A stretch of DNA of 64,000 bases from Candidatus Hydrogenedentota bacterium (lineage in GTDB: Bacteria; Hydrogenedentota; Hydrogenedentia; Hydrogenedentales; JAEUWI01). Shown in pieces: positions 29,309 through 52,361 of this stretch. The first letter of the stretch is position 1; every line of letters begins with the position of its first letter. The notes beneath the pieces were generated by a model. That model ran no database searches and had not been told where the DNA came from. It worked only from the letters and a program-made list of their open reading frames with translations. The translations under genes and the position numbers were made by a program. Where the stretch lies: NCBI GenBank assembly GCA_019637335.1, contig JAHBVV010000015.1:1-64000 (forward strand), written 5' to 3'.

Positions 29309-29609
29309 GGTCGGGTTGCTCCTTGTTGATTCGCGCCTCCGGCGCGTTGCGGGCGGGCCGTCCACCACGGCGCATCTTCGACCCGCGCTCCCATTCGTCC
29401 GCACTTCCGCTGCAGTGCGGGATTGTGTCGTCGAGGAATCAAGCCAGCTTCATTCCGCTGAAGTATTACCCATTTCTTTAGCACCGAAGGTGCGGATCAT
29501 ATCAGCCTGGGCCGGTGGCCCAGGTAAATTGGCTCGGCCAGGGCTGAAAGCCCGTATCATAACTTCCCTACAGTCTATGCGCGGCAATGTTCAGAACTTC
29601 ACCCATTGT
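29309..29609. repeat. Non-coding stretch with several small perfect hairpins
   Basis: Three compact palindromes lie in a row: GCACCGAAGGTGC (29481-29493), CCTGGGCCGGTGGCCCAGG (29506-29524) and GGGCTGAAAGCCC (29541-29553). They are relatives, in the reverse orientation, of the hairpin modules at 49708-49789 and 54318-54399. Nothing here looks coding. The module may act as a terminator between the co-directional genes. Confidence 0.6.
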
Positions 29610-47200: not shown

Positions 47201-48664
47201 ATGGCACACGGTATCGGAAAACACGCGTTCACAGCCGCCCTGGCGGCGCTCCTGGCCACGGTGGCGTCGGCCGGCCCAATCGAGATCGGCGCCCGCCTGG
47301 AGCCCCTGGTGGACCGCCACCTCATCGAATCGCTGGACGGGACCGAACTCCGCCTGCACCAGCCGGTTCCCCGCGAAATCGCCATCACCTACGACGCGCC
47401 CTGGGAGGGCAACACGAGCTGCTACGTCACCGTGTTTCAAGACGAGGGCCGCTTCCGCATGTACTACCGCGGCTCGGGCTACAACCTGGAGGACGGCTCC
47501 TACTCGAAGCAGTTCGTGTGCTACGCCGAGAGCCAGGACGGCGTCACCTGGACGAAACCCGAACTCGGCCTCATCGAATTCGAAGGCTCCAAAGCCAACA
47601 ACATCGTATGGGACGGCATGGGCGTGCACAACTTCGCGCCCTTCAAGGACACCAACCCGGACTGCAAGCCCGAAGAACGCTATAAGGCCCTGGCCGGGGG
47701 CGAGAAGAAGGGCCTCGTCGCCTTTACGTCCCCCGACGGCATCCACTGGAACCTCGTGAGCGAGGAGCCCGTCATCACAAACGGCGCCTTCGATTCGCAG
47801 AACCTCGCCTTCTTCGACAACACCCGCGGGCGCTATGTGGACTTCCACCGGGGCTTCAAGGACGGCGTCCGGCATATCATGACCTGCACCTCCACCGACT
47901 TCCGCACCTGGACCGAGCCCGAGTGGGTCGATTTCGGCGATACGCCCGACGAACACCTCTACACGAACGCCACCACCCCCTCGCCCGGCGCACCGCACAT
48001 CTTCCTCGCCTTCCCGAAGCGCTTCATGCCCGATCGCCAGTCCGCCGTCCACCCGATCAAGGGCGTTTCCGACGGGGTTTTCATGACGAGCCGAGACGGG
48101 ATGCGCTGGGACCGCTGGCGCGAGGCGCTCATCCGCCCCGGCGCCCAAGACAGCCGCTGGGTCAACCGCAACAACATGATCGCCTGGGGCATCCTGCCCA
48201 CCGCCGCCGCGCTCCCCGATACGCCGGACGAATGGTCCATCTACGCGACGGAAGGCTACTACGTTGGCCCGTGCCACCTCCGCCGCTACTCGATCCGCCA
48301 GCATGGCTTCGTGTCGGTCCACGCGGGCGGCGAGACGGGTTCCTTCGTAACCAAACCTATTGTCTTCAGCGATGATCCCGCCGTCTCCATCCCCGTACCG
48401 GGCCAGGAGACGCCCGCGAAAACCGCGCTGCTGCTCAACTTCGCCACCTCGGGCGCGGGCGTTATCCGCTGCGAAATTCTCGACGCCAACCACGTGGCCA
48501 TCCCCGGCTTCCGCCTGGACCAGTGCGACGAGATCTTCGGGGATTCGCTGGAGCAGGCGGTCACGTGGAACGGCGGCGCGGAATTGAAGTCCCTCGCGGG
48601 AACGCCGGTGCGGTTGCGTTTCGAGCTCTTCGACGCGGACCTCTACGCAATCCGGTTTCAGTAG
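47201..48664 (+). CDS. Secreted beta-propeller glycosidase-like protein (GH32/43/68-like)
   Basis: This is a 487-residue protein. The start at 47201 begins a signal peptide (HAFTAALAALLATVASA-GP); an ATG at 47159 in the same frame would add 14 residues. Repeated blades with YYRGSGYN, FVCYAESQDGVTWTKPELGL and VAFTSPDGIHWNLVSEEP show the 'SxDGxxW' pattern of the five-bladed beta-propellers of glycoside hydrolase clans. HIFLAFPKRFMPDRQSAVHP and the C-terminal beta-sandwich (about 370-487) follow. It may act on fructans, arabinans or similar, but no catalytic set is confirmed. Confidence 0.82.
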   Translation: MAHGIGKHAFTAALAALLATVASAGPIEIGARLEPLVDRHLIESLDGTELRLHQPVPREIAITYDAPWEGNTSCYVTVFQDEGRFRMYYRGSGYNLEDGSYSKQFVCYAESQDGVTWTKPELGLIEFEGSKANNIVWDGMGVHNFAPFKDTNPDCKPEERYKALAGGEKKGLVAFTSPDGIHWNLVSEEPVITNGAFDSQNLAFFDNTRGRYVDFHRGFKDGVRHIMTCTSTDFRTWTEPEWVDFGDTPDEHLYTNATTPSPGAPHIFLAFPKRFMPDRQSAVHPIKGVSDGVFMTSRDGMRWDRWREALIRPGAQDSRWVNRNNMIAWGILPTAAALPDTPDEWSIYATEGYYVGPCHLRRYSIRQHGFVSVHAGGETGSFVTKPIVFSDDPAVSIPVPGQETPAKTALLLNFATSGAGVIRCEILDANHVAIPGFRLDQCDEIFGDSLEQAVTWNGGAELKSLAGTPVRLRFELFDADLYAIRFQ

Positions 48665-48714
48665 CGGCGGGTTCCGGCTTTGAATACTAACGAATTCTCC
48701 ACGAACGCGTGAAC

Positions 48715-49088
48715 CATAGGAATAGCCAAATCCGTCATCCCCGCGAACGGGACTGTCGGTTTACTTAACTCACCCTACACTATGGAAGGAATGAGAAGAT
48801 CCGTCATCCCCGCGAACGCGGGGATCCAGCGACGCGATCGCGCAAACCTCCGAATTCCACTGGATTCCCGCTTTCGCGGGAATGACGCTGTAGGGCGCTA
48901 GCACAGAATTGTAGGTTTTGAGGCATCCGCACCAGTTAAACCGACAGCCCGGAACGCGGGGATCCAGCGACGCGAACGAACAAACCTCCAAATTCCACTG
49001 GATTCCCGCTTTCGCGGGAATGACGCTGTAGGGCGTTAGCACAAAATCGTAAGGAATGCGCTCACCGCACACGTTAAATCAACAGCCC
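48715..49088 (+). mobile_element. Older copy of the 201-bp element, interrupted by a second copy
   Basis: If the nested copy (48750-48950) and one 6-bp duplication are removed, an 84-bp core (GTCAT at 48734 to ATGAC at 49024) and an intact 64-bp right arm (49025-49088) remain. The arm ends GTTAAATCAACAGCCC and abuts the Hpt stop codon exactly. The expected left arm (48681-48733) matches only over its last 18 or so bases and then diverges, so the left terminal repeat is lost or decayed. Confidence 0.7.
48750..48950 (+). mobile_element. Complete 201-bp MITE-like element, nested copy
   Basis: The ends GGACTGTCGGTTTA and TAAACCGACAGCCC are terminal inverted repeats with one mismatch. The layout is arm 53 bp (48750-48802), core 84 bp with two inverted hairpins (48803-48886) and arm 64 bp (48887-48950). 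The flanks CGAACG (48744-48749) and GGAACG (48951-48956) are a near-perfect 6-bp duplication of the loop of the target hairpin. No protein is encoded. Confidence 0.85.
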
Positions 49089-49442
49089 CTACTCCGACGA
49101 CAGATAGGCGTGAATGGCGGACCGCACCCGCGTGAACTCATCTTCCGCCTCCGCAATGAGGCCATCCGCCATGGCGGAGTCCGCCGTCTCAAGCGCTCCG
49201 GCGATTTCGTGCAGGCGCGCCGTCCCGATATTCGCGCTCGCGCCCTTGATCGTGTGCGCCTCGCGCCGCAACTGATCGGCGTCGCCCGCCGCATGCAGAC
49301 CCCGCAATCCGGCCACGCGCCCGCCGCAATCCTCCACATACGCCTCGAAAAGATCCCGCTCAAATTCCCCATCGCCGCCCGAGGCCTCCCGGATCCGCGC
49401 AAAATCCAGCGGCGGGCTGTCGAATTGTCCTTCGCTCGGCAT
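49089..49442 (-). CDS. Stand-alone Hpt (histidine phosphotransfer) domain protein
   Basis: This is a 117-residue helical protein. REAHTIKGASANIG is the Hpt signature, with H63 as the phospho-acceptor, and helices such as FERDLFEAYVEDCGG and RLHEIAGALETADSAM surround it. ATG 49442 follows AAAGGG. It relays phosphate between a hybrid kinase and a response regulator; neither is nearby. Its TAG stop directly touches the end of the older mobile element copy. Confidence 0.88.
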   Translation of the reverse strand: MPSEGQFDSPPLDFARIREASGGDGEFERDLFEAYVEDCGGRVAGLRGLHAAGDADQLRREAHTIKGASANIGTARLHEIAGALETADSAMADGLIAEAEDEFTRVRSAIHAYLSSE

Positions 49443-49951
49443 CACGAACCCTTTCCGCGCCGGCGGCGCACACCCGCAGTCTAGCCTCCCTTCCCGCGCG
49501 GTTCAAGCGCGGGAGCCGAAAACGAGGACCAAAACCGCTCTCGCCCGCGCTGTCCGCCTCGGGCGCATCTATCGGCGAAGTTTTGGGAAAACGCCCCGAA
49601 GGGGTACGGCAGCTTCGAGCCCCGGGCAACGCCTGGGGTTAACGGGATAGGTTTCCTGTAAGCCCTGAAAGGGCGGCGGAGTTCATGCTCCTAGGCTGAA
49701 CTGCGCTGCCCTTTCAGGGCGAATAAAAACTACACCACGCTTCCCCTGGGCGTTGCCCAGGGCTCGAAGCTGCATTGGCCCTTCGGGCCGGAAGAGCGGG
49801 AAACCCGAGTCTACTACATTCATCACTGGCGCCTTGAACCACCATACAATCCGCGTTCATTCGTGTTCATTCGCGGTTCAAATTTATTCTTCGCGACCTT
49901 CGCGCCCTTCGTGGTGATCATTTCTTTCGTTGCGGCCAGAGGCGGCCACGC
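49443..49951. repeat. Non-coding block of small hairpin repeats
   Basis: GCCCTGAAAGGGC (49662-49674) and its reverse complement GCCCTTTCAGGGC (49708-49720) frame the left part. The module 49708-49789 continues with CCCTGGGCGTTGCCCAGGG (49744-49762) and GGCCCTTCGGGCC (49777-49789). The same three hairpins, in the same order and with the same 36- and 33-base offsets, recur at 54318-54399. At 49890-49925 lies a TTCGCG/CTTCGCG word repeat like that at 786-816. No gene is seen. Confidence 0.7.
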
Positions 49952-51883: not shown

Positions 51884-51955
51884 GTGATTCTAAAGCCGCC
51901 TGAAGTAGTCACCCTCGTCGCACCCAACGGTGGCAGCTCTCGGTGATCGAAAACC

Positions 51956-52246
51956 GTCATCCCCACGAAAGTGGGGATCCAGAGACCATGCAACGTTAAC
52001 CTCGCAAACCCTCTGGATTCCCGCCTTCGGGGCTGTCGATTTAACGTGTGCGGTGAGCGCATTTCCTACAATTTTGTGCTAACGCCCTATGGCGTCATTC
52101 CCGCGAAAGCGGGAATCCAGTGGAATTCGGAGGTTTGTTCGTTCGCGTCGCTGGATCCCCGCGTTCGCGGGGATGACGGATCTGCTCATTCCTTCTATAG
52201 TGTAGGGTGAGTTAAGTAAACCGACAGCCCCCTTCGCGGGAATGAC
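51956..52246. repeat. 84-bp paired-hairpin (REPIN-like) repeat split by the mobile element
   Basis: GTCATCCCCACGAAAGTGGGGATCC (only partly quoted; 51956 onward) forms one hairpin. The second hairpin, ATTCCCG-CCTTCG-CGGGAAT followed by GAC, is interrupted in its loop by 52030-52230. Removing the element and one copy of CCTTCG leaves exactly 84 bases, the same length as the core within each element. The palindromes have the ATTCCC-N8-GGGAAT or ATCCCC-N8-GGGGAT form known from Neisseria dRS3-like repeats. Confidence 0.8.
52030..52230 (-). mobile_element. Complete 201-bp MITE-like element in a hairpin loop
   Basis: The ends GGGCTGTCGATTTAA and TAAACCGACAGCCC are terminal inverted repeats. On the minus strand the order is arm 53 bp (52178-52230), core 84 bp (52094-52177) and arm 64 bp (52030-52093), identical to the copy at 48750-48950. 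A perfect 6-bp duplication CCTTCG flanks it (52024-52029 and 52231-52236). It encodes no protein, so it depends on a transposase encoded elsewhere, if still active. Confidence 0.9.
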
Positions 52247-52361
52247 GAATACATCCAGTGTACGTACGGCATCTCGTATCGGCGAACGCCTTACGTCAGA
52301 CGGCTAAAGTATTACTTGTTTTTTGTCCACACTACTCAACGCCAGAAAGGAGGGCTGTGAA

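Follow-up and report, generated by a model that had tools for sequence, protein, structure and literature searches.

A 201-bp putative MITE seated on the axes of CGTC-type REP palindromes in Candidatus Hydrogenedentota, and an IS1182-family element as its likely transposase source

Copies of the 201-bp element in the window

The stretch of DNA analysed, hereafter the window, comprises 64,000 nucleotides of a Candidatus Hydrogenedentota genome (7.16 Mb, draft of 55 contigs), and the whole genome was tabulated for insertions. The window contains two full-length copies of a 201-bp element (Table 1), which shows a left arm of 53 bp, a central REPIN core of 84 bp and a right arm of 64 bp. The first copy has the termini GGACTGTCGGTTTA...TAAACCGACAGCCC and splits an older 84-bp repeat, and the sequence of 48301-49500 confirms this layout as given in the preliminary description. 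Excision of 207 bp leaves exactly 84 bp, also as described, which read as an intact core. The older copy (48734-49088) retains a right arm about 75% identical, and its left arm is unrecognisable, with 19 of 53 matches, within random maxima. An Rfam search at this locus gave no structured RNA match. Elsewhere in the window, the minus strand at 29480-29524 shows a match to the Acido-Lenti-1 RNA (RF01687) that scores 37.3 bits, where the gathering threshold is 37.

The second copy shows a perfect 6-bp duplication and interrupts a repeat of a different family, which has its own 84-bp core. A host that is itself an earlier copy of the element, as described for 48734-49024, is not what the copy at 52030-52230 has. 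This second repeat family has the ends CTTTAGCCGTCTGAAG and CTTCAGACGGCTAAAG and about 31 cores genome-wide, with intact copies at loci L088, L089 and L090, and a second genome of the order (L086) has a similar repeat arrangement with CACTTTAGCCG ends. Two unrelated MITE-like families have a REPIN core in the middle. In both window copies of the 201-bp element, the duplicated bases are positions 11-16 of the host core counted from a GTCAT end, and the 53-bp arm adjoins that end, as had been noted; both ends of the core read GTCAT because it is quasi-palindromic.

Table 1. Repeat elements, cores and duplicated hexamers in the window.
Feature	Positions	Strand	Remarks
84-bp REPIN core of the older copy, interrupted by the inner MITE	48734..49024	+	291 bp minus 207 bp = 84
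Target hexamer, left copy CGAACG	48744..48749		junction reading
Inner 201-bp MITE	48750..48950	+	left arm 48750-48802, REPIN core 48803-48886, right arm 48887-48950
Target hexamer, right copy GGAACG	48951..48956		5/6 identical to left copy
Remaining right arm of the older copy	49025..49088	+	ends TAAATCAACAGCCC
Second repeat family, whole, MITE-interrupted	51894..52305		ends AGCCGCCTGAAG / CGTCAGACGGCT
84-bp REPIN core of the second repeat family, host of the second MITE	51956..52246		84 bp after excision
Target hexamer CCTTCG, first copy	52024..52029		junction reading
Second full-length 201-bp MITE	52030..52230	-	full-length copy in window
Target hexamer CCTTCG, second copy	52231..52236		junction reading

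The family and its insertion sites across the genome

The element shows 14-bp terminal inverted repeats (GGGCTGTCGGTTTA), and at its centre two CGTC-tagged REP hairpins form a REPIN-like pair of 84 bp. The genome contains about 30 near-full-length copies, all of 201 bp, and 36 left arms (≤3 mismatches). The element carries no gene, and its size, copy number and inverted repeats are those of the MITE class; as in this class, there is a target-site duplication (6 bp), and the genome contains an autonomous partner that shares its ends (a 1859-bp IS). On sequence grounds, the 201-bp unit would be a MITE mobilised in trans by an IS1182-family transposase. Contig C12 (175987-176020; L031) terminates within a MITE copy seated on a REP axis. 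Since a contig breaks inside a copy, the repeats of this family disrupt assembly and further copies may be missing.

With ≤2 mismatches, 173 REPs are found in the genome and none in the reversed control. DNA folding of the REP yields ((((((((....)))))))), a stem of 8 bp capped by a 4-base loop of the GAAA type, and the core contains two such CGTC-tagged palindromes in inverted arrangement, as in REPINs formed by CGTC REPs. The palindromes have the same head-to-head CGTCAT..ATCC arrangement, of the CGTC-1 type, as the published CGTC-tagged REPs and REPIN-like dimers, including Neisseria dRS3, but here the dimer lies within MITEs of two unrelated families and is the target of an IS1182 element (PMC3733652). 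Roughly half of the genomes sampled from the order contain the REPIN core alone (~84-90 bp), without MITE arms. In the source genome, contig C20 (37115-37649; L040) shows four REPIN cores at a regular spacing of 147 bp and no MITE arms. The same genome shows 12 matches to Y1_Tnp (IS200/RAYT-type) transposases.

In total, 29 insertions were resolved, and six further copies, with rearranged junctions (L011, L017, L021, L024, L028 and L036), were left out of the count. The insertion point is the exact axis of a REP hairpin in 24 of the 29, counted where the duplication has at least 5/6 identity inside a REP palindrome; these 24 include the IS itself and the outer insertion of L018, whose host REP is degenerate. 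Sixteen of the duplications are perfect over 6 bp and eight show 5/6 identity. The duplicated hexamers are several, nearly all of the form C-N4-G, and correspond to the tetraloop and its closing pair, since the REP folds as an 8-bp stem with a 4-base loop; the REP centre is the duplicated hexamer in 24/24 (GTCATTCCCG-CGAAAG-CGGGAATCC and variants). Given the 173 REPs, the chance that a random insertion meets an exact REP centre is about 2.4e-5, and the probability of 24 of 30 random insertions at REP centres is about 1e-105. At the level of sequence, site-specific insertion is established.

The left arm stands beside GTCAT in 14 of these insertions and on the inner side in 10 (binomial p 0.54), which rules out a fixed insertion direction. 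From two events, the preliminary description had proposed the same site and the same direction, and it named varied offsets or both orientations elsewhere as evidence to the contrary: the genome-wide table shows both orientations and no variation in offset, so the shared site stands and the shared direction is withdrawn. Hosts were assigned from the sequence inward of the REP: of the 24, 11 belong to the second repeat family, seven to the MITE's own core (among them L009, a weak assignment) and the remaining six are other REPs or unassigned, which rules out that the hosts are always older copies of the same element. At L002, each REP of one REPIN holds its own insertion, with the duplications CGAAAG and CTTCCG, and at L004 the host REP is outside an inverted pair and the next REPs run in the same direction. 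Because either REP of a pair is used, as well as the unpaired REP of L004, the unit recognised is a single REP palindrome of about 26 bp. The 84-bp fold as the target is ruled out by the use of both REPs, of several 84-bp families and of this unpaired REP. From the earlier suggestion of a mechanism aimed at the folded hairpin, targeted insertion is thus retained, with the small REP in place of the 84-bp fold.

The IS1182-family partner and relatives in other genomes

The IS is present as a single intact copy of 1859 bp (C1:314580-316438, equivalent to L032:1081-2939), shows the same 14-bp ends as the MITE and is seated on the REP axis within a MITE copy, with the duplication CTTTCG. Some members of the IS1182 family target palindromes, and the targets here are REP axes. 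Its ORF of 605 aa matches NF033551 (IS1182) with 363.8 bits (cut-off 270), as well as PF13751 and PF05598, and is the sole match in the genome above the NF033551 cut-off. The predicted protein contains the DDE-type signature Y-2-R...E-6-K as YKQRSPGIEGVFGVVK at residue 494, near the C-terminus, with an R-E spacing of 4. Upstream of the transposase gene, a consensus-like promoter, TTGACA-17-TATAAT, can be read from the sequence. The MITE and the IS have in common only 14-16 terminal bases. The closest relative of the transposase, 58% identical, adjoins GCCTGTCGGTTTA at the expected end, and a protein scan of the GTDB contig collection gave no named transposase relative. This IS is the likely source of transposase for the MITE: because ends, target and duplication length are common to both, we infer mobilisation in trans. 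Since the genome is a draft of 55 contigs, another transposase source could be missing from it.

In a congeneric species, the orthologous MITE has GGCCTGTCGATTTA at its ends and is seated on REP axes in both orientations, with 6 bp duplicated (CGTGCG, CGAACG and CGAAAG). A scan of the GTDB contigs for an element end joined to half a REP gave further records from Nitrospiraceae, Zixiibacteriota and Candidatus Hydrogenedentota. In Zixiibacteriota, a MITE about 193 bp long shows the same arrangement with CGAATG duplicated, and an additional element from Hydrogenedentota, about 404 bp long, shows the duplication CGAAAG. Junction matches in Natrinema, Natribaculum, Haloterrigena and Kiritimatiellae were taken as chance, as the extended end sequence is absent. 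In viral contigs, the junction between element end and REP loop was not found.

Other IS1182-family elements of the same phylum are seated in hairpins. The element at L107 lies within CATGGG-CGAGACG-CCCATG, a sequence unrelated to the REP, with the 7-bp loop duplicated, and the one at L110 lies between TGCCTA and TAGGCA and shows no duplication. In a genome of the phylum (L112), an IS1182 element has the CATGGG/CCCATG stem on both sides and an inverted 7-base loop, CGAGACG on the left and CGTCTCG on the right; the loop copy is direct in L107 and inverted in L112, and the inverted copy may be a rearrangement or a trace of cruciform joining. Eleven plasmid IS1182 elements tend to have inverted flanks (permutation p = 0.006), a small sample in which some have common end sequence; they are about 30% identical in the examples listed, and one of them (L120) is inside a terminator-like hairpin.

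Proposed mechanism, alternatives and known systems

The whole account, in which the MITE is moved in trans by the IS1182 transposase into REP axes, the loop is duplicated and the copies nest, is given a probability of about 0.88. The transposase of the single intact element would act on the 201-bp MITE through the 14-bp ends. The transpososome would pick CGTC-type REP palindromes and join with a 6-bp stagger centred on the axis of the palindrome, by which the tetraloop and the closing C-G pair would be duplicated. A nearly symmetric target would allow entry in either orientation, and, with a REPIN of two inverted REPs at the centre of the MITE, each insertion would add two target sites, in which further copies could nest. 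Later deletions between repeated REPs and arms would produce tandem and hybrid copies. The elements and their ends, the duplications, the position and orientation of each insertion and the IS are read from the sequence; mobilisation in trans, the chemistry of the joins, and the recognition of an extruded hairpin over a sequence, are proposed steps of this account.

Analogy with IS1272 makes it plausible that the folded hairpin is recognised. IS1272 and TnSha1 of staphylococci, also of the IS1182 family, insert into hairpins, delete them in part, or for IS1272 in part or whole, leave no duplication and show no sequence consensus in their targets (PMC5678879, PMC4923244). For IS1272, a loop-joining route (c) in which the loop alone is duplicated has been drawn but was unobserved (PMC5678879). 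The system described here resembles IS1272/TnSha1 in the IS1182-family transposase, the inverted-repeat or hairpin targets and the use of both orientations. In contrast to IS1272, the hairpin is kept here with both stem arms, split at its tip, and the 6-bp loop is duplicated, as route (c) predicts; the targets come mostly from a single REP family, and it is a non-coding MITE that is abundant. Replacement of the hairpin as in IS1272, with hairpin loss and no duplication, is not seen among these insertions, in which both stem arms are kept and the hexamer is duplicated. The more specific proposal, that an extruded hairpin tip is recognised, its loop exactly duplicated and two new sites added per insertion by a MITE with its own landing hairpins, is tentative and falls just short of an even chance.

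Alternatively, recognition may be of sequence in ordinary double-stranded DNA, the transposase reading the REP itself or a CGGGRAT half-site next to C-N4-G, a serious possibility that is nonetheless somewhat doubtful. It accords with the single sequence family common to all 24 clean targets and with two insertions outside intact REPs, the outer ones of L014 and L020, which keep a REP-like right half (CGGGGATG and CGGGAATG) and no pairing left half. In all, five insertions lie outside recognisable intact REPs (the outer insertions of L014, L020 and L022, the last with a 1-base shift, and those of L016 and L029). DNA folding of L014 outer, L016, L020 outer and L029 gave no good hairpin on the insertion axis. 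Because of these five insertions, four of which were folded without a good axis hairpin, a folded hairpin is not strictly required. Against reading of sequence stand the same-phylum elements of L107 and L110, in hairpins of unrelated sequence, and the entry of IS1272 and TnSha1 into hairpins that lack a sequence consensus (PMC5678879, PMC4923244).

An origin of nested and tandem copies from recombination or slippage between REPs, and not from repeated transposition, is unlikely for the family as a whole. Core-plus-right-arm rows at 138-bp steps are found at L006, L014, L018 and L020, and left-arm-plus-core rows at 127-bp steps at L034; these rows are the expected remains of nested insertion after loss or gain of a repeated segment. 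Private variants are common to neighbouring units, CGGACG in three units of L020 and CGAACGGGGGG in two of L018, which indicates that some units are later tandem duplications. In L017, L024, L033, L035 and L037 one REP of the host is joined to the arm of the other REP, as expected from REP-to-REP deletion. The private variants of some arrays and the first four of these hybrids speak for recombination, which is a likely origin for the tandem arrays. However, most insertions have distinct flanks and host-matching hexamers (CGCAGG, CTTCCG, CGAAGG and others), and recombination is largely refuted as a general cause because the duplications are host-specific.

It is very improbable that the 84-bp REPIN is the mobile unit of a RAYT-type Y1 transposase, with the 53 and 64-bp arms as passengers: cores that lack the arms, present in many genomes of the order, and the 12 Y1_Tnp matches are in its favour, but the 6-bp duplications bound the full 201 bp, the inverted-repeat ends match the IS1182 element, and the published CGTC REPs have no dedicated transposase and no linkage to RAYT genes (PMC3733652).

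Among known elements of the REP axis, ISRm22 is flanked by 6-bp repeats at the axis of palindromy of Sinorhizobium meliloti REPs and ISPsy8 by 3 bp at the axis (PMC1525189). ISRm22 has in common with the present elements the REP symmetry axis and a 6-bp duplication whose outermost bases are G/C, but ISRm22 and ISPsy8 are transposase-bearing ISs not described as carrying the REP target, and ISRm22 is listed under IS4 (PMC1525189). A literature search that covered few subscription journals found no MITE described as carrying its own target REP dimer. Hairpin-targeting IS1182 elements and ISs that target REP axes are already known; the combination is new, namely an IS1182 lineage that duplicates the loop and does not delete the hairpin, together with a MITE that has its own landing site.

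With more than 20 insertions resolved to the base, these copies constitute a natural data set on a transposase family considered to read DNA structure. They tie CGTC REPs, which have no known dedicated transposase, to a DDE transposase for which they serve as targets. By carrying its own target, an element can steer repeated insertion to existing non-coding repeats and away from genes. Should the transposase indeed read structure, it would serve as a probe of the hairpins extruded in living cells.
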